Source: a virus. From it: 24,268 bases of DNA. The translations under genes were made by a program, and so were the position numbers. The notes under the pieces were generated by a model that was given only the letters and a program-made list of their open reading frames with translations, did not search any database and was not told the origin of the DNA. Below are positions 2,450 to 24,268 of the stretch, one piece after another. How positions within the stretch are numbered: the first letter of the stretch is position 1; the number at the start of each line of letters is the position of its first letter. The stretch covers positions 1 to 24,268 of IMG/VR virus record IMGVR_UViG_3300002835_001060, one strand, 5' to 3'.

Positions 2450-2452
2450 TTT

Positions 2453-2482
2453 TGTCAGAAAAACGTATACTTTTTTCCGACA
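2453..2482. terminator. 30-base imperfect palindrome with T-run: terminator or operator
   Basis: TGTC at the left end pairs with GACA at the right. GAAAAA pairs with TTTTTC around a central GTATAC, leaving only two symmetric mismatches. It begins four bases after the TAG stop of the upstream gene (2447-2449). In RNA the right arm supplies a six-U run, so it could end transcription. The stem is weak (A-T rich), however, so a protein-binding operator is just as likely. Confidence 0.45.
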
Positions 2483-2483
2483 T

Positions 2484-2506
2484 AAAAAGTTGCCGTTCGC
2501 CGGCAA
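2484..2506 (-). terminator. Possible minus-strand terminator-like hairpin
   Basis: The arms TTGCCG (2490-2495) and CGGCAA (2501-2506) enclose a five-base loop. Read on the minus strand, the hairpin is followed by CTTTTT, the layout of a small intrinsic terminator. No minus-strand gene is seen nearby, so its use is uncertain. Confidence 0.3.
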
Positions 2507-2518
2507 TGTCGCCGTGCG

Positions 2519-2538
2519 TTGACATTAGGCCGGCCTAA
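2519..2538 (+). promoter_or_regulatory. TTGACA hexamer abutting a perfect 14-base palindrome
   Basis: A consensus -35 hexamer TTGACA (2519-2524) is followed at once by TTAGGCCGGCCTAA (2525-2538), a perfect palindrome. A -10 box at normal spacing is poor (ATCGCC), so an activator-dependent promoter or a plain binding site is more likely than a strong constitutive promoter. Confidence 0.35.
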
Positions 2539-2568
2539 GGCATCGCCATGCATACTTTTTGCGCCGCA

Positions 2569-2587
2569 GTTCAAGCCACGTTTGAAC
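2569..2587. repeat. Small inverted repeat
   Basis: GTTCAA (2569-2574) and TTGAAC (2582-2587) are exact inverted arms around a seven-base spacer. Short arms like these are weak evidence alone, but the site lies in a run of similar dyads. Confidence 0.3.
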
Positions 2588-2597
2588 TACTGCTCAT

Positions 2598-2618
2598 AAA
2601 TGGAGCGCGGCTCCATTT
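2598..2618. terminator. Nine-base-pair stem-loop
   Basis: AAATGGAGC (2598-2606) and GCTCCATTT (2610-2618) are perfect inverted arms around the three-base loop GCG. The stem is strong but only TTT follows inside the arm, then GCCGCC, so it is not a textbook intrinsic terminator. An operator or an RNA structural element is possible. Confidence 0.4.
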
Positions 2619-2655
2619 GCCGCCGCCGCTCTAAACATTCCCGCTCGCGCCCAAT

Positions 2656-2693
2656 CGGGTATAATCTGGCCGCTTTCCCGGCATTTATACCCG
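2656..2693. promoter_or_regulatory. Nine-base inverted arms enclosing TATAAT
   Basis: CGGGTATAA (2656-2664) pairs exactly with TTATACCCG (2685-2693) across a 20-base spacer that itself contains short GCCG/CGGC arms. The left arm overlaps a perfect -10 hexamer TATAAT (2660-2665), but no good -35 lies 16-18 bases upstream. The 8-mer CCCGCTCG occurs beside each arm (2640-2647, 2690-2697), exactly 50 bases apart. Confidence 0.4.
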
Positions 2694-2761
2694 CTCGGGA
2701 ACTGTTGCAAACTGTCTGACTTTGCGCGCAACGTCCTACGGTTTGTCACAAAATTTCCGCA

Positions 2762-2780
2762 CAGAAAGTGGCAGAAAGTG
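2762..2780. repeat. Two copies of CAGAAAGTG, 10-base period
   Basis: CAGAAAGTG occurs at 2762-2770 and 2772-2780 with one base between, a period of one helical turn. It precedes the longer 10-base repeats at 2831-2870. Confidence 0.4.
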
Positions 2781-2830
2781 TCATTACTTGCGCAGAACTA
2801 TAGCGATTTCTATCCGATTTCCCCTAGAGA

Positions 2831-2870
2831 CAACGATAAATAACGATAAATAACGAAAAATAACGAAAAA
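2831..2870. repeat. Four tandem 10-base AT-rich repeats
   Basis: The array reads CAACGATAAA, TAACGATAAA, TAACGAAAAA, TAACGAAAAA. A 10-base period puts every copy on the same helix face, as expected for cooperative protein binding (iteron-like). The A+T richness would also suit a DNA-unwinding segment or an UP-element-like stretch just before the promoter candidate at 2877. Confidence 0.6.
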
Positions 2871-2876
2871 TAGTTC

Positions 2877-2904
2877 TGGACATTTGTCCAAAAGTGTCCA
2901 TAAT
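2877..2904 (+). promoter_or_regulatory. Late-gene promoter candidate with overlapping operator
   Basis: TGGACA (2877-2882, 5/6 to the -35 consensus) and CATAAT (2899-2904, 5/6 to the -10 consensus) are separated by 16 bases. The -35 box is the left arm of the dyad TGGACA-TT-TGTCCA (2877-2890), and a third half-site TGTCCA (2895-2900) reaches the -10 box. Transcription would begin near 2911, about 85 bases before the scaffold start codon. The layout fits a repressible or activator-controlled sigma70-type promoter for the head operon. Confidence 0.5.
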
Positions 2905-2996
2905 AGATAGTATCAATGTGAAGTTGTGCCCTCATGGCACGCAGGTGTTGATCGGACTGAGCGACGCACGCTCTGGCACTACTTGGAGGTTTATCC

Positions 2997-4025
2997 ATGG
3001 CGGAAGAGAAGGCAGCCCTGGCTGCAGGTGACGATATCATTTCTATGGCTCTGGAGGAGCTGACCGGACAGCCGGCCCAGCCCGAGGACGTAGAACAGCC
3101 CGAAGCGGCTGAAGATCTTTCACAAACTGAGACAGAAGAGGAATCGGAGGAGAAATCCGAAGATGCCTCTGAAGATGTTAAGGACGAAGAGTCCGAGGAC
3201 GAGGAGTCCGAAGAAGACGACGAGGAAGGCGAGAAGGACGACGAAGCGCCGCAGGAGAAAATCCAGAAACGGATCAATAAGCTCACTGCCCAGAAAAAAG
3301 AGGCGCTCGAAAAAGCCCAGACGCTAGAAAGCGAATACGCGCAGGCGAAAACACGTCTCGCCGAGCTGGAATCCCAAGTCAACGAAGCCGCCCGCCCTGT
3401 GCTGCAGCCGACCGCGGAAAACCCGCTGGCCGATGTGGACACGCCCGAGGCGCTTGAAGCGAAAGTCAAAAGCGCGCAGGAAGTTCGCCGCTGGGCACTA
3501 CGCAATACCGACGGCGCCACGGTCAAACGACCGGACGGCACCGAGGTGTATCTCGATAGCGACCAGGTCAAAGACTACCTCATCAAAGCGGACGACGTTC
3601 TGACCGTTCACGCCCCGGCCCGCCAGCAGTGGCTCGCCCAGCGTCAACCGGCCGTTGAAGCCGCCAAGAACCTGTTCCCCGACATCTTCAAAAAAGGATC
3701 GCCGATGCATCAAGCGTATCAGGCGACGATCAAGCAGGCGCCCGAGCTATTGAAGCTCCCCCAGAATGAATACTGGGTCGGCCTCGCCCTCTACGGAGAG
3801 CAGCAGCTCATGCAGAAGCAGGCGGCCGATCAAGCCAAGGCCAAAGCCGCCAAGAAAGTCTCAGCCAGTGGAACATCCAAGACCCCGACACCTGTCAAAC
3901 CCGTGAGCACGCCGAAATCTGCCACCAAGGGCGCGGTCAATACGGCCACGCGCAACCGAGTGCTCTCTGGCGCCGGCGGGATCTCCGATCTCGAGGCTTA
4001 TATGTCAGAGGCGCTGTTCAGTTAA
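2997..4025 (+). CDS. Probable capsid scaffolding protein (acidic, coiled coil)
   Basis: The 342-residue product lies directly upstream of the major capsid gene, the usual place for an assembly scaffold. Residues 30-85 are an extreme run of Glu, Asp and Ser, followed by a predicted coiled coil at about 86-132 (KIQKRINKLTAQKKEALEK). The rest is hydrophilic, and the C-terminal part is lysine/alanine-rich, as scaffolds often are where they touch the coat. TTGGAGG sits about 8-14 bases before ATG 2997, a strong ribosome binding site. It is the first gene after the long control region and so opens the head operon. No protease motif is visible. The call rests on composition and position. An internal head protein is the main alternative. 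Confidence 0.7.
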   Translation: MAEEKAALAAGDDIISMALEELTGQPAQPEDVEQPEAAEDLSQTETEEESEEKSEDASEDVKDEESEDEESEEDDEEGEKDDEAPQEKIQKRINKLTAQKKEALEKAQTLESEYAQAKTRLAELESQVNEAARPVLQPTAENPLADVDTPEALEAKVKSAQEVRRWALRNTDGATVKRPDGTEVYLDSDQVKDYLIKADDVLTVHAPARQQWLAQRQPAVEAAKNLFPDIFKKGSPMHQAYQATIKQAPELLKLPQNEYWVGLALYGEQQLMQKQAADQAKAKAAKKVSASGTSKTPTPVKPVSTPKSATKGAVNTATRNRVLSGAGGISDLEAYMSEALFS

Positions 4026-4055: not shown

Positions 4056-5075
4056 ATGCCCTCTACAGTAGGTGCCTTGTTCCCATCCACGGGCAACCGT
4101 GAAGACCTCCTCGACATCATTTCCGTTGTCGACGCGAAAAACACTCCCATCAGCTCGTCTGTCGCCAAAGTCGGCGCCGATCTGAACAACCCCGGTCTCT
4201 ACAGCTACCAAGCCGATTCCTACAACTCGCCCACCACGGACGGCGTTGTGGATTCTGCCGACGTTTCTGACTTCGACGACCCGACCAAAAACCGTGTCCT
4301 CCTGAGCGCCCGCGCGCAGAAGTTCCGCCGCACCATCAAGGTGAGCGACTTCCAGCAAAACGTCCAGGACGTTGCCGGCGTTGGCAAGAAGAAGGAAATG
4401 GCCCGCGGCACAGCTCGCGCCATCACTGAACTCAAGCGCGACATCGAGGCGACAATCTCAAGCGACAACGACTCCGTCGAAGGTTCCGGCTCGACCGCTT
4501 ACAAGACCCGCGGCCTCGGCGAGTGGATCAAAGCCACGGCGCAGACCGACCTCCCGGTTCCTGCTTCACAGCGCACGCCGTCCGGTAGCATCAACGCGAC
4601 CGTGACCGCTTCTCTCACCGAGACGATCTTCCAGAACGTCTTGCAGAGCATCTACGAGCAGACCGGCACGACCGACCGTCTCGTCATGGTGGCTGGCCCG
4701 TCGTTGAAGAAAGCCGTCACGAACTTCACCCGCTTCACGGTGAACGCGACCAGCGATGTCTTTAGCCTGCGTCAGAGCACCCAGAATGCCGATTCCGGCA
4801 AGCTGGTCTCCAACGTGAGCTTCTACGAAGGCGACTTCTCGACTGTCGAGATCGTGCCCTCGCTTCTGCTCGCGGCCAACGCCTCGACCGATGCCGAGAA
4901 ATTCGCCCGCGGTTACATCATGTCGGCCGATCACCTCATGCTTCGCTATGGACGCCGTCCGCGGTTCCAAGAGCTGGAAGACATGGGTGGTGGTCCCCGC
5001 GGTTTGATCGACGCCATCGTGTCGCTCGCCGTGATGACCCCGAAGGCCATGGCCAAGTTCAACGGAGTTTCCTAA
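4056..5075 (+). CDS. Major capsid protein, SU10-like (DUF5309-type)
   Basis: This 339-residue protein has the expected size and place for the coat protein, between the scaffold and portal genes. Its N-terminal part (GNREDLLDIISVVDAKNTP, then YSYQADSY) resembles the start of the SU10 major head protein family, in which a 'TP' turn and an aromatic-D-S/Y segment precede the HK97-fold core. The C-terminal part (MLRYGRRPRFQELEDMGGG) also resembles that family. The leader AAAAAGAAAGAATTACTATT has only a weak Shine-Dalgarno (AAGAAAG), so A-rich leader pairing may matter. It follows the scaffold gene by 30 bases. Family assignment is from pattern memory. The coat-protein role is well supported by context. 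Confidence 0.8.
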   Translation: MPSTVGALFPSTGNREDLLDIISVVDAKNTPISSSVAKVGADLNNPGLYSYQADSYNSPTTDGVVDSADVSDFDDPTKNRVLLSARAQKFRRTIKVSDFQQNVQDVAGVGKKKEMARGTARAITELKRDIEATISSDNDSVEGSGSTAYKTRGLGEWIKATAQTDLPVPASQRTPSGSINATVTASLTETIFQNVLQSIYEQTGTTDRLVMVAGPSLKKAVTNFTRFTVNATSDVFSLRQSTQNADSGKLVSNVSFYEGDFSTVEIVPSLLLAANASTDAEKFARGYIMSADHLMLRYGRRPRFQELEDMGGGPRGLIDAIVSLAVMTPKAMAKFNGVS

Positions 5076-13956: not shown

Positions 13957-15957
13957 ATGGCAAACTACGGCTACACCTTCACCAGCGGCGACACCGTCAC
14001 GCCGACCAAACTTAACAACGCCCGCACTGTCAGCGAGATCGTCAATGCGGACATCGCCAGCGCGGCGGCGATTGTGGGAACGAAAGTGTCTCCCAACTTC
14101 GGGTCGCAAGCGGTGAGCACGACTGGAACCGCGACGCTGGGAACCTTGAGCGTGACCGGCAATACCACCTTGGGAGACGCAACGGCCGATACCATCACGC
14201 TTACTGGCACCGTGCAGCCGGGTGTGGTTGTTTCCGGCAGCAGCGCCGGTGATGCGGTGCGGATTACGCAGACCGGCGCGGGTAATGCTTTGACTATTGA
14301 AGATAGCGCTAACCCCGATAGCACGCCGGTAATCGTCGATGCCGCGGGCAATGCCGTGATCGGGCACACGGCCGCCTTGGCGGCGGGCGGCACAACGCAG
14401 CCGCTGACGGTAAGCGGCCTCGGCGCCACGCTGGTGCGGGCGGCGGCGGATGCGGTCGGCGCCGTGCTGATGTTTTGCAAATCGCGCTCGACCACGGTAG
14501 GCGGGGCGCGGGCGATTGTGGCCAACAATGACGAGTTGGGCGCGATTGAATTTGCCGCCGACAATGGCGCCAACTTGAGCGTCTTGGGCGCGATCATTCA
14601 GGCGTCCGTAGACGGAACACCTGGTAGTGCCGATATGCCGGCGCGATTGGTCTTTAGCACGACGGCGGATGGGGCGGCTTCGCCGACCGAGCGGATGCGG
14701 ATTACTAACGCGGGCAATGTTGGTATCGCCAACACCTCGCCCAGTGAAAAGCTGCATGTCACCGGCAACATTAAGGCCAGCGGGTTCATCGACACCGACA
14801 CATCGTTCCGAGGGCAGGCCAGCGACTCGGCTGGGGCACCGTCGTTCACTTGGACCGGCGACACAAACACCGGTATGTTCCGGCCGGCGGAAGACACGCT
14901 GGCCTTCAGCGAGGGCGGCAGCGAGGTGATGCGCATAGATTCTTCCGGCAACGTCGGCATTGGCACGGCTGCGCCCAGCACCAAGCTCGATGTGAGCGGC
15001 ACGGTGACGGCCACAGCGTTTAGCGGTCCGCTGACAGGGTCGGCCACCACGCTAGCCACCGGACGCACCATCGAGCTGACCGGCGATGTCACGGGAACCA
15101 CGGGATCGTTCAACGGCTCGGCCAACGTGAGCGCGGCGACAACGATTGCCAACAATGCGGTAGGCAACACCAAGCTGCGCGACAGCGCCGCGCTCTCCGT
15201 GATCGGCCGGAGCGCCAACTCCAGCGGAGACCCGGCCGACATTGCAGCCGCCACCGATGGCCATGTGCTGCGCCGCAGTGGGACGGCCTTGGGTTTTGGG
15301 CAGATTGCCACGGGGGGCATTACGGATGCGGCTGTGACCACAGCGAAGATTGCGGATGCCAATGTCACCACAGCGAAGATTGCGGATGCCAATGTCACCA
15401 CAGCGAAGATTGCGGATGCCAATGTCACCACAGCGAAGATTTTGGACGCCAATGTAACTCCAGCGAAGCTGTCGCAGCCTCTAACGCTCGCCACCGCCCA
15501 AGCCACCACCAGCGGCACCAGCATTGATTTTACCGGCATTCCGTCTTGGGTGAAGAGGATTACGGTGATGTTTGGTGGGGTTAGCACAAGCGGCACAAGT
15601 ATTCCAATGATTCAGCTTGGCGACTCTGGCGGAATTGAAGCGACCGGATATGCGGGATCAGCAGGTTTTGTAACAGGCGCTTCCAGCAATGCAGCAACCT
15701 ACACCGATGGATTTCGTCTAAACCAAGCGCACGCCGCCTCGACCGTTTTCCACGGGAATGCTGTTTTGGCGTTGCTTAGTGGCGCCTCCAACACTTGGGC
15801 CATGTCGTTTGTCGGAGGATACTCCAACTCCGGTGCCTTGAAGATTTCGGGCGGCTCAAAATCTTTGTCAGATGCCCTCACTCAAGTCCGCCTTACAACA
15901 GTCAACGGCACCGATACCTTCGATGCGGGGTCGGTCAACATCATGTATGAGGGCTAA
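13957..15957 (+). CDS. Long tail fibre protein with tandem repeats
   Basis: The 666-residue protein is almost entirely Thr/Ser/Gly/Ala/Asn-rich, as trimeric fibres are. Residues 1-45 (ANYGYTFTSGDTVTPTKLNN...) may anchor to the tail. The shaft contains familiar fibre modules: ERMRITNAGNVGIANTSPSEKLHV (shortened here) at about 248-270, then RIDSSGNVGIGTAAPSTKLDVSG, and TGMFRPAEDTLAF between them. At 461-500 a 10-residue repeat TTAKIADANV occurs, coded by a 30-base tandem repeat. The last ~150 residues have a different, mixed sequence (PSWVKRITVMFGGVST) and are probably the receptor-binding tip. No endosialidase-chaperone triad is visible. It lies four bases after the nozzle gene. Confidence 0.8.
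   Translation: MANYGYTFTSGDTVTPTKLNNARTVSEIVNADIASAAAIVGTKVSPNFGSQAVSTTGTATLGTLSVTGNTTLGDATADTITLTGTVQPGVVVSGSSAGDAVRITQTGAGNALTIEDSANPDSTPVIVDAAGNAVIGHTAALAAGGTTQPLTVSGLGATLVRAAADAVGAVLMFCKSRSTTVGGARAIVANNDELGAIEFAADNGANLSVLGAIIQASVDGTPGSADMPARLVFSTTADGAASPTERMRITNAGNVGIANTSPSEKLHVTGNIKASGFIDTDTSFRGQASDSAGAPSFTWTGDTNTGMFRPAEDTLAFSEGGSEVMRIDSSGNVGIGTAAPSTKLDVSGTVTATAFSGPLTGSATTLATGRTIELTGDVTGTTGSFNGSANVSAATTIANNAVGNTKLRDSAALSVIGRSANSSGDPADIAAATDGHVLRRSGTALGFGQIATGGITDAAVTTAKIADANVTTAKIADANVTTAKIADANVTTAKILDANVTPAKLSQPLTLATAQATTSGTSIDFTGIPSWVKRITVMFGGVSTSGTSIPMIQLGDSGGIEATGYAGSAGFVTGASSNAATYTDGFRLNQAHAASTVFHGNAVLALLSGASNTWAMSFVGGYSNSGALKISGGSKSLSDALTQVRLTTVNGTDTFDAGSVNIMYEG
15337..15456 (+). 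repeat. 30-base tandem repeat in the tail fibre gene
   Basis: Three identical 30-base copies (15337-15366, 15367-15396, 15397-15426) are followed by a diverged fourth (15427-15456) and a partial fifth. Each encodes TTAKIADANV, the diverged copy TTAKILDANV. The unit is a whole number of codons, so copies can be gained or lost without breaking the frame. Confidence 0.9.
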
Positions 15958-20413: not shown

Positions 20414-23400
20414 ATGGCAAAAGGCTTTACAGACGCCCAGCTCGACGCAATGGACGAGATGGAGGCTCGACAGAACCTTTACGGAACTGCCGCTAGGGTG
20501 CTCGAGCCGCCGGAGGCCGCCCCGATGACGGACGCGCAGATGGACCAGCGCGTCACGTCGGACAGCGTCATGCAGGCCACGTCCTTTGGCCAGAAGACCA
20601 TGCCGCAGCCTGAACCGCAGCCACCGCAAGCGGACTTTCGAGCGCCAGCAAGGCCGCTGACAGATGCAGAGCTGAACGCGCAAGAGGACGCTTTGTATTA
20701 TGATCCGTCCTATGAGATGCCCTTTGAGGAGTTTGCCCCGGTGCATGCGCGGAGGCAGGAGCAAAAGAACACGGTGGGCAGCTTTGTGGATGGAGCGGTT
20801 GCCGCGGGCCAAGGGCTGGTGTCGCTTACTGCGGAAATGGGCGGCGAGCTTCGGGACAATTTTACCTCCAATCTTTTCCGGCCAGACCGCTTCGCTACGC
20901 AGAACTTTGTCACGTTTAAGGAGGGTGGGCGCAAGGCCGGTTTGGAGTTTGCCAAGTTCGTTGACTGGATCGGCAACACGGTGCGCGACCATGCTACAGA
21001 CGTGCGGAGGCAGGAGCAGGTGCGCGGCGCCATTACCCAAAAGCTGCAGGCTGAGGGCAAACTTTCCGGCGACCTGCGCAAGGACATTGAAATCATCAAC
21101 CGCGAGTTTGCCGCGGCGAAAGAACGTGGCGAGACGGCGCCAACGCCGCTGGAAGAAAATGCTGATGTCGAACAGGCGTTTGAAGATTATCGGCGCGGCA
21201 AGAACTTTGACCGCGAGATTGCGGGCGTGGGAAATTACCGCATCGGCCAGACGCCGGTAACGCAAGAAAGTAGCGAGGCAAGGGCCACAAATCCGTTCAC
21301 CGGCGAGGTCATGCAGCCACAGCGTGCCTTGGCAACTGGCTTATCTTTGGCCATGGCGCCGGACAACATTTTGCCGGTTGGCGCTGGTGTGCTGGCCAAG
21401 GCGCGCGTCCTGCGCCGCCTGTCTTCGATAACCGGAGTGCCTCTTAAGATGACGGAAGGGGTGGCCAATGCGGGGGCGGACGCTTTGCAGCGCGGCTCCA
21501 TGCGTATCACTGACAAGGTGCAGGATTTGACCGGAATGAATGCTGGGCAGCAGACGGCGGCCGCAACAGCGTTGACTGCCACCGCGGGTTATTTAAGCGC
21601 GCAAGGTCAAGGAGCGCCGGCGGCAATAGGTGGCGTGGCTACAGGTGTTCTTTCGATCTTGCCCATCATGAAATTTGGCGGGGCGATTCTTCGGCGCACC
21701 GGAGGGGCCGCGGGCGGCGGTTATGCCATCGTGCGCGAAATGGGTGCTGGAGGCGTCGGCGTGGCTGGTGCCGAGACGGCCGAGGCGATGGCCAAGAGTG
21801 GCGTGTTCCCCCAGCGCTACGCCCGCTACATGCAGCCCGGCGCGGGGTCTGTTGAGAGTACGCTGCAGCGTGTGGCCAAAAGCCCCGAGAACCCGCAGAT
21901 GCTGCGCAGGCTGTCGCGGACGGCGGACAACCTGGGCGCAACACAAGTCTTCCGGCTAACGGACGACATTGTTAGCTCTGCTGCGGTGTCTGGCCTTGCG
22001 GCGGCTCCGTTTGCCTTAACGGCTCCAGATGCCGAGCAAGGCGGGCAGATTGTGGGCGGCGCTGTTCTGCTGGGAACTGTTGCCGGGACGGCGACAAGGG
22101 CTTTCGGCAGGCGGCCGGCCGAGGTGGACGCCGACATTGCCAGAATGCTGGTCGATGTGACCGAGAGCAACGGTGACGCAGCGTCTCTCATGTCGCTTTC
22201 GCACGACAGCCTCTCGCAGTTGGCGGCCATGCAGGGCGTGTTGCGCGACAAGGTAAAATTTATCCCGCTGCGTGGTCAGGATTATCGGGCCAACGCCGAC
22301 CTCCGCGCAGCCGGCGGCGAGACGGCCGCGGGTCTTTACGTTGAAAAGGACGCCAATGGGTTGGCGAGGATCTTCGTCAACATGGGCCACACAGCTCCGG
22401 TGGACGGCTCGGTCGTGGTGCGCCCCGACGCTGATCGCGGTGGCAGCGTGATCGACATCACCGCGGCAGACGGGACCGTGGATTCGACGCATGTGCCGCA
22501 GGGAGTTCGGCTGCTAGTTAAAACGGGCGACACCGTGTCGTCCAACCAGCGGCTGGCGCAGGACTTGTCGCCTAATCGAATTATCCCGCACGAAATCGGT
22601 CACGCCATTTTGACCAGCAACATTCTTGACGGTCAGCCGCGCAACGATCTGCGCAATTTGGTGAACCAGCAATATGCGCCCGAAGGCGTCGCTGCGCGCG
22701 GCAGAGAGTACGCAACACAGTTGGTGGACAAGGACATTCTGGTCGGCGCGATTGAGGACGCCCCGGTCAAATTGACCGACGCCCAGATCGATGCCGTCTC
22801 CACAGGCAAGACAACGCTGGCGGACATTATGAAGAGCCAGCCGGTTTCTGAGCAGGCACGACAGCGTCTCATCGACCAGCGTGTCGAAGAGCTATCCCAG
22901 CGCAGCATTGAAAATGGCCAAGACCCCCTCGACTGGGCGCGGGACGAGATCATCGCCGAGACTTTTGCCAGCGAGGCGCCGGCCATTGACTTCCGCGCGA
23001 TCCGCCGCGATGCCGCCTTCCCTCGCCTCGCCGAGGCAATGCTGGCGACTGGCGGGCGGGTGCTGGAGATGATGGGCGTGCGCCTTGACCGCGGCACCGG
23101 CAAGATGCTGGACAATCCGTCGGTGCTTTTCCGCGACAACCCGCTTTTCCAAGACCGCATCATGCAGAAGCGGGTGAAGGAATACGTCCGAGCCTACGAT
23201 CAATTTTTGACCGGCCTCGAGGAGGCTGGCAGCGCAACGCCCCGCGGCGTGGAGCTGGCGCGCAGCAGCCGCCCGGAAGACATGGCGCGCAGCACGCACG
23301 TCAAATTACGGGACGAGGGACGCGGCGTCTTGGAGAACGATTTCCTTTTCCAAAAGCCGGACGGCACCTACAGCTTCAAGCCGCAGCGCATCATCAACGC

Positions 23401-24268
23401 CGCTGAGGCCAACCGCGCAGCGCAAATCAAGACGCTGTACGATGCGCGCAAGTTTGTGCCGGTGAACTCGACCGAGTTTGGCAAGCGCAAGGTCAACGGC
23501 CGCGAAGTCATCGGCGGGCCGGTGCTACCGCCGCAGTTTGACCTCTTCACGCAATTCCCCAAGCATGTGCGCGAGTTTGCCCGGGCCATGGAAGCCAGCC
23601 GCGCCGAGGGCGGGAGCTGGAATATCGATTACAACGCCATCGGCACCAGCTCCAGCGGACGCTATCGCATCACCAACATGGGCGCTGTGCGTGCCATCCA
23701 GCGCGAGACCGTGCCTTTCGGTTGGCAGGTGACCAAGCAGAACCATTTGCTCGCCGCCTCGCTTGACCTTAACGCCTTCCGCGCGTCGGCCATGAAGGCG
23801 ATCAACCGCGGCGAGCTGGGCATCTTCAACAACGACATGCGGCAGGTGGAGGCCGACCTCAAGACCTACCTCGCCAACCACCGCAACGGATTGCCCGGAG
23901 AGGCAACCATCGGACAGCAGAAGCGCGATACGCTCAACGGACTCATCGGCACCGGCACCGCCGTGCAGCGCGCCGCCAACCCGCTCTACGCCGAGCTAAA
24001 TCCCAAGGGCAGCATCCGCACCTGGCGCATCGACCGCCTCAACGACGCCCAGCCGAGCGGGCGCACCGGCTACTTCTTCGACTACGACAAGATCAACAAC
24101 AACCGCATGCCCCAGCAGATCCCGCGGGAGGCTCAGGGGATGCCGGACTTTGTCCAGCCGGACGGTAGCACCCTGCGCGTGCCGGATGCATCTTGGCGCG
24201 CCGACAGCGCCCGCCAGTTGCAAGAGGCTGACGCTTACTTCCGGTCACTTGCCAAGCAGCGCAAGGAG
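20414..24268 (+). CDS. Very large ejection protein with zinc-metalloprotease-like domain (3' end outside window)
   Basis: The frame is open from ATG 20414 to the window edge: 1,285 codons with no stop. The N-terminal ~375 residues are charged and helical. Glycine/alanine-rich hydrophobic stretches at about 376-430, 517-540 and 545-565 could cross or disturb a membrane. A beta segment (GLYVEKDANGLARIFVNM) precedes HEIGH at residues 726-730, the HExxH zinc signature. DEIIAETFASE at 844-854 supplies a candidate third ligand, Glu845 or Glu849, as in the polyvalent-protein zincins. The last ~200 residues (VPFGWQVTKQN, then TWRIDRLND and YDKINNNRMP) resemble a conserved C-terminal region of large phage ejection proteins. 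It starts three bases after the previous stop, without a clear ribosome site, so coupling is likely. Confidence 0.75.
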   Translation, partial: MAKGFTDAQLDAMDEMEARQNLYGTAARVLEPPEAAPMTDAQMDQRVTSDSVMQATSFGQKTMPQPEPQPPQADFRAPARPLTDAELNAQEDALYYDPSYEMPFEEFAPVHARRQEQKNTVGSFVDGAVAAGQGLVSLTAEMGGELRDNFTSNLFRPDRFATQNFVTFKEGGRKAGLEFAKFVDWIGNTVRDHATDVRRQEQVRGAITQKLQAEGKLSGDLRKDIEIINREFAAAKERGETAPTPLEENADVEQAFEDYRRGKNFDREIAGVGNYRIGQTPVTQESSEARATNPFTGEVMQPQRALATGLSLAMAPDNILPVGAGVLAKARVLRRLSSITGVPLKMTEGVANAGADALQRGSMRITDKVQDLTGMNAGQQTAAATALTATAGYLSAQGQGAPAAIGGVATGVLSILPIMKFGGAILRRTGGAAGGGYAIVREMGAGGVGVAGAETAEAMAKSGVFPQRYARYMQPGAGSVESTLQRVAKSPENPQMLRRLSRTADNLGATQVFRLTDDIVSSAAVSGLAAAPFALTAPDAEQGGQIVGGAVLLGTVAGTATRAFGRRPAEVDADIARMLVDVTESNGDAASLMSLSHDSLSQLAAMQGVLRDKVKFIPLRGQDYRANADLRAAGGETAAGLYVEKDANGLARIFVNMGHTAPVDGSVVVRPDADRGGSVIDITAADGTVDSTHVPQGVRLLVKTGDTVSSNQRLAQDLSPNRIIPHEIGHAILTSNILDGQPRNDLRNLVNQQYAPEGVAARGREYATQLVDKDILVGAIEDAPVKLTDAQIDAVSTGKTTLADIMKSQPVSEQARQRLIDQRVEELSQRSIENGQDPLDWARDEIIAETFASEAPAIDFRAIRRDAAFPRLAEAMLATGGRVLEMMGVRLDRGTGKMLDNPSVLFRDNPLFQDRIMQKRVKEYVRAYDQFLTGLEEAGSATPRGVELARSSRPEDMARSTHVKLRDEGRGVLENDFLFQKPDGTYSFKPQRIINAAEANRAAQIKTLYDARKFVPVNSTEFGKRKVNGREVIGGPVLPPQFDLFTQFPKHVREFARAMEASRAEGGSWNIDYNAIGTSSSGRYRITNMGAVRAIQRETVPFGWQVTKQNHLLAASLDLNAFRASAMKAINRGELGIFNNDMRQVEADLKTYLANHRNGLPGEATIGQQKRDTLNGLIGTGTAVQRAANPLYAELNPKGSIRTWRIDRLNDAQPSGRTGYFFDYDKINNNRMPQQIPREAQGMPDFVQPDGSTLRVPDASWRADSARQLQEADAYFRSLAKQRKE

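Follow-up and report, generated by a model that had tools for sequence, protein, structure and literature searches.

What role does the one long intergenic gap of a phage contig play, lying as it does directly before the head genes? The contig is an IMG/VR-kind virus record of 24,268 bases, which in its entirety constitutes the window analyzed here. All its genes are on the + strand, in the order terminase large subunit (71-1699), three small ORFs, the gap, a scaffold-like gene, the capsid gene and more head and tail genes. The 547 bases at 2450-2996, between the end of an ORF at 2449 and the start of the scaffold ORF at 2997, contain no convincing gene, and all other intergenic gaps in the ORF list are of about 50 nt or less. 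The scaffold-like gene, which is the first of the head operon (2997-4025, + strand; 342 aa), shows a weak match to the head scaffolding proteins of PHROG 8865 (E 5e-4) and sits 5' of the capsid gene, an arrangement shared with annotated phages (e.g. phiM5); the major capsid protein (4056-5075, + strand) belongs to the SU10_MCP family (Pfam PF17236, E 1.7e-41). The first 8 kb recovered zero DNA-level matches among 50,697 phage records. The capsids of the nearest isolates are 24-34% identical to that of the window, and in the three upstream regions read from these isolates less than 60 nt precede the scaffold gene. No tRNA, small ribozyme or other known RNA was detected in the window. A small conserved ORF between the terminase and the gap (1912-2118) shows a CxxC...CxxC zinc-ribbon-like pattern and recovered no family match.

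The dyad-rich upstream block varies among relatives

The initial annotation had singled out 2450-2996 as the sole long gap and as unusually dense in dyads, and our counts confirm both statements. Counting non-overlapping dyads with at least 7 matched pairs and a loop of up to 25, the gap holds seven, amounting to 61 pairs as against 24.9 +/- 11.5 in 200 dinucleotide shuffles. None of the 200 shuffles reached this pair count and five reached the dyad count, and only 1 of 83 same-size windows elsewhere matched the gap in pairs. The excess sits in 2450-2868, and in the 128-nt core adjacent to the scaffold gene simple dyads are not significant (43/200 shuffles being as good). The two direct repeats with a 10-base period that had been reported are likewise real, with CAGAAAGTGG occurring twice at 2762-2780 and a AACGATAAAT-like unit four times at 2832-2872. 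Neither is conserved, and relatives carry other short repeats at the same place.

Terminase and capsid searches recovered 158 loci, and across these relatives the gap measures between 127 and 896 nt. Three of them (L003-L005) have a capsid protein 99% identical to that of the window, yet their gap is just 147 nt long; indeed, the whole block 2450-2868 is absent from close relatives (gaps of 127-147 nt). The last 124 or so nt are kept in all 53 of the distinct gaps that were scored. The modules upstream of this core, namely the hairpin module A (2553-2600), B (2598-2634), C (2635-2702), D (2703-2740) and F (2741-2815), are independently present or absent, with their order constant in 52/53 gaps and none at all present in ten. 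In eight long relatives the modules are confined to this gap, apart from short weak matches. Thus, the variable block at 2450-2868 appears to be optional, mosaic sequence, and the core at 2869-2996 to be the conserved part, whose importance becomes visible solely by comparison with relatives. Accordingly, when the dyads were checked for conservation, most of those at 2450-2868 were found to come and go, and the dyad over the -35 box and the leader described below were kept.

Module A occurs in both orientations (window 2553-2600; L012, L114), with the loop GCCACGT in one and its reverse complement ACGTGGC in the other on the same arms, so that the hairpin is locally inverted. Directly ahead of the promoter, several lineages have short tandem repeats of their own, AACGATAAAT in the window-specific 10-bp repeats at 2832-2872 and CTCTCAACCCTCAT, CTCGTCACTCGTCAC and GCATTCTGCATTC in L090, L082 and L086; this site appears to be a hotspot of repeat birth or exchange. 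By eye, stretches resembling an extra small membrane-protein gene were also seen at the gap starts of L041, L010 and L015 and in the gap of L148.

The dyads and short direct repeats, in excess within 2450-2868, had also invited the view that the whole cluster is a replication origin or a DNA packaging site. Neither suggestion gains support, since near-identical relatives (e.g. L003) do without the dyad-rich part, and a block absent from close relatives cannot be essential for replication initiation or packaging. Against an origin, moreover, the GC skew does not turn at the gap, and the combination of a skew inflection with conserved iterons or dyads was not found. The window is a genome fragment, and a search for terminal repeats in eight long relatives recovered none. 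We consider an origin or packaging function of the cluster very improbable.

A promoter with an operator-like dyad

A sigma-70-like promoter (2877-2904, + strand) lies at the start of the core, with the -35 box TGGACA at 2877-2882, a 16-nt spacer and the -10 box CATAAT at 2899-2904. It is well supported, being present in 99 of 100 distinct upstream sequences with a hexamer spacing of 16-17 nt. The first base of P1, the stem that opens the leader, follows the -10 box by 6 nt (75 sequences) or 7 nt (24) and is a purine in 99/99. From this fixed spacing we infer that transcription begins at the first base of P1, which in the window would be A2912, 7 nt after the -10 box.

The -35 box is overlapped by a dyad, CTGGACATTTGTCCAA (2876-2891), which was followed through the 100 distinct upstream sequences. 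In most relatives it takes the form CTGGACA-N5-[CAT]CAG, the best case being the perfect palindrome CTGTACATATGTACAG of the operator-like CTG-N10-CAG type. A LexA-type box CTG-N10-CAG covers the promoter in most relatives and reads CTG-N10-CAA in the window, where the last base of the form is lacking; its position 4 is usually G. Two genome-collection scans with the capsid and terminase found no prophage and no host. Given that the promoter does not need the right half of the dyad, the latter probably acts as an operator, bound by a phage repressor or by a protein resembling LexA. An S24 repressor was sought in 14 relatives and not found.

A second copy of the late-promoter dyad is present in 4 of 7 long relatives (G002 at 24079, G003 at 22278, G005 at 23414 and G006 at 24668, positions being those of records turned so that the leader reads on the + strand), where it precedes the start codon of a small gene by 11-12 nt, upstream of a dnaB-like helicase gene. 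This second copy hints that a single regulator might act on both early and late operons.

A covarying RNA fold in the leader

The leader RNA would extend for 86 nt on the + strand, from the likely +1 at A2912 to the A of the scaffold AUG (2912-2997), and the covariance model matches it at 2907-2999 with 102.7 bits. Its first stem, P1, pairs AUCAAU (2912-2917) with GUUGAU (2947-2952) and encloses the hairpin P2, GUGCC-CUCAU-GGCAC (2926-2940). A linker CGGACU (2953-2958), nearly invariant as CGG[A/U]CU in a 44-sequence alignment, leads to the hairpin P3, GAGCG-ACGCA-CGCUC (2959-2973), of which 12 stem haplotypes are found in relatives. Over 47 distinct sequences, standard pairs occupy 98.6% of the cells of P1-P3, and 15 of the 16 pairs have changed on both sides (6/6 in P1, 5/5 in P2 and 4/5 in P3). 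The covariation score of 0.436, compared with 0.132 for shuffled alignments (0/500 as good) and at most 0.055 when the structure is slid by 1-3 columns, comes from an alignment fitted to the covariance model and hence leaning towards the structure; RNAalifold, applied to a MAFFT alignment of 27 sequences, recovers P1-P3 unaided. The wobbles in P1-P3 comprise 13 G-U and 0 A-C, a bias that fits a + strand RNA better than a dyad acting as DNA. Mapped onto a tree built from the scaffold and capsid proteins, P3 shows at least 21 haplotype changes, and its two most variable pairs underwent at least 11 and at least 13 changes with both sides following. In addition to the linker, the unpaired positions that remain invariant are two bases of the P3 loop (CG) and a UGG after P3. 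On these comparative grounds the P1-P3 fold on the + strand is well supported. When single sequences are folded by free energy, other pairings are preferred for the window and for about half of the leaders, with the probability of P1-P3 low or near 0 in some.

Two further candidates were considered. An ON/OFF switch, in which the 5' domain pairs with the ribosome-binding site (the strongest of the alternative pairings), is thermodynamically strong in many sequences and is not supported by coevolution; the pairing of a 5' domain with its own ribosome-binding site is no stronger than with swapped ones (-13.07 vs -13.43, p 0.88). An upstream ORF beginning at an AUG in the P2 loop was rejected, as it breaks in frame in the sequences read by hand (MARRC*, MAREV*, MARGC*, MAHRCWSDW*) and one subclade lacks this AUG.

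A hairpin over the scaffold Shine-Dalgarno sequence

Immediately before the scaffold gene a further hairpin, P4 (UGGA-GGUUUA-UCCA, 2984-2997, + strand), contains the Shine-Dalgarno sequence GGAGG (2985-2989), and the last base of its 3' strand is the A of the AUG. The P4 pairing is present in all 66 distinct leaders, whereas among 36 other start sites with a Shine-Dalgarno sequence from these phages 4 have it, and the hairpin is thus well supported. Its stem is of three types (UGGA/UCCA, UGAG/CUCA and UGG/CCA), with at least 10 exchanges among them on the tree, and its loops vary in sequence and length. The presence of P4 everywhere, with its stems exchanging, points to the initiation of scaffold translation. 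Some of the exchanges in P3 and P4 could have arisen through short recombination blocks, rather than point changes.

Distribution of the leader and the sister clade

A pattern scan recovered at least 119 stretches with the leader, which appears to be an undescribed folded RNA kept in more than 100 related virus contigs by paired mutations. It matched nothing in Rfam 15, either at the gathering threshold or with E relaxed to 5, and the leaders of eight diverse relatives were likewise unmatched. Long relatives within the clade give one strong match apiece, and the leader is retained across capsid lineages down to 48% identity. Its fixed position before the scaffold gene is well supported, as it precedes this gene in 61 of the 61 cases with a complete enough downstream ORF; in the remaining five of the 66 leaders this ORF is ended by contig ends. 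Thus, as in structured cis-regulatory leaders, a fold backed by covariation lies in what, judging from the promoter spacing, is the 5' UTR of a single type of gene.

A sister clade (L049-L080, L283-L347), whose terminase is about 50% identical, is without this RNA and carries, in the same place before its scaffold gene, an unrelated covarying leader consisting of a hairpin with a loop pairing downstream to form a pseudoknot, and a second hairpin. In this leader 99.1% of the cells are paired, and the covariation score is 0.281 as against 0.089 in shuffled alignments and at most 0.052 for slid structures. The occurrence of different covarying leaders before the scaffold genes of two clades suggests that leader control of such genes may be common.

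Functional implications

With moderate confidence we interpret the core 2869-2996 as a late promoter that drives the head operon, together with a cis-acting structured leader behind it that most likely acts at scaffold translation. The initial annotation had offered late-gene control alongside origin and packaging functions; of these it alone is retained, as a promoter and a covarying leader lie 5' of the scaffold and capsid genes in every clade member examined. The fold of the leader we regard as well supported, and its function we infer: given that the fold is kept and includes the scaffold ribosome-binding site, the leader probably controls the timing or amount of capsid. Transcription would start at A2912, so that the mRNA would open inside P1 with its 5' end paired; P1/P2 and P3 would fold as transcription proceeds, and the scaffold Shine-Dalgarno sequence would be held in P4, a weak hairpin. 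Working in cis on the head mRNA, the leader would most likely control the initiation of scaffold translation and hence the supply of scaffold and capsid, with P1-P3 providing a folded platform for a putative bound factor and a shield for the 5' end. Translational control is favoured because of P4 and the link to the scaffold gene, and it may act together with protection of the 5' end.

It is conceivable that the leader is mainly a stabiliser of the mRNA without any regulated state, in which the paired 5' end and the hairpins block the 5'-end-dependent decay initiated by RppH and RNase E and thereby raise the output of head proteins. P1 begins at the inferred +1 in all leaders, and both enzymes prefer single-stranded 5' ends (PMC3997798). 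However, a mere end block needs neither the invariant unpaired bases (CGG[A/U]CU, the loop CG and UGG) nor a conserved P4, and we regard this explanation as rather unlikely. Alternatively, P1/P2 and P3 might form a factor-independent antiterminator comparable to HK022 put, which would bind RNA polymerase at the nascent stage and let it read through the long late operon. The put RNA suppresses termination without a phage protein and binds the beta' zinc-binding domain, and antitermination of this type is known from lambdoid early operons. HK022 putL is about 70 nt long, with two stem-loops just downstream of its promoter (PMC9378689), and P1-P3 similarly span 62 nt with two stem domains from the inferred +1, directly 3' of a phage promoter; this likeness is in architecture only. 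The one-strand run of genes 3' of the gap, which reaches the contig end, is also consistent with a role of this kind. Yet put occurs in early operons, two per genome, whereas the leader is found as a single copy per genome, before the head operon only and joined to a ribosome-binding-site hairpin. Furthermore, terminator-like sites are not in excess in the operon, Rfam offers no match, and the covariation of P4 points to translation. An antiterminator is in our estimate unlikely, and a little more doubtful is the compound proposition that the leader is a put-like factor-independent antiterminator driving the late structural operon and that tailed phages have more than once placed different folded RNAs before scaffold genes. 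A metabolite-binding riboswitch timing capsid synthesis might be suggested by the compact junction-like fold, with its invariant unpaired bases beside the ribosome-binding-site hairpin, but the downstream gene is of one kind only, Rfam again gives no match, and there is no coevolved alternative fold, making this quite improbable.

The favoured reading, a structured leader acting at scaffold translation, is reminiscent of several known phage systems. In the MS2/R17 coat-protein operator a small hairpin holds the Shine-Dalgarno sequence and reaches the AUG, as does P4; however, MS2/R17 is an RNA phage and the gene concerned is the replicase, whereas P4 is the shorter hairpin and follows a larger fold that covaries. 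In P22, free scaffold protein is said to control the scaffold gene post-transcriptionally (Casjens and co-workers), which by analogy might be a precedent for translational control here; our search of the open-access literature on P22 scaffold autoregulation found no support for it, and we know of no covarying leader RNA in that case. How tailed phages balance scaffold against capsid protein during assembly is an old question, and few cis-acting RNAs that set this ratio are known to us. The present RNA family, which is absent from Rfam and occurs in more than 100 environmental phage contigs, has a constant position at the start of the mRNA of the head operon. The operators of T4 genes 32 and 43 also combine a structure at the 5' end of the mRNA, a hairpin or pseudoknot, with a sequence overlapping the ribosome-binding site ahead of the controlled gene (PMC3014915). 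These differ in serving replication genes and in being bound by the product of the gene itself, whereas here the gene is that of the scaffold and the fold is different.

With regard to lifestyle, 11 of 14 long relatives match tyrosine integrases (E <= 0.001), 4 of them above the curated cut-off, and the group is therefore probably temperate. Elsewhere in the window, an ORF at 13957-15957 that matches tail fibre families contains five 30-nt tandem repeats, 90% alike, at 15319-15468.
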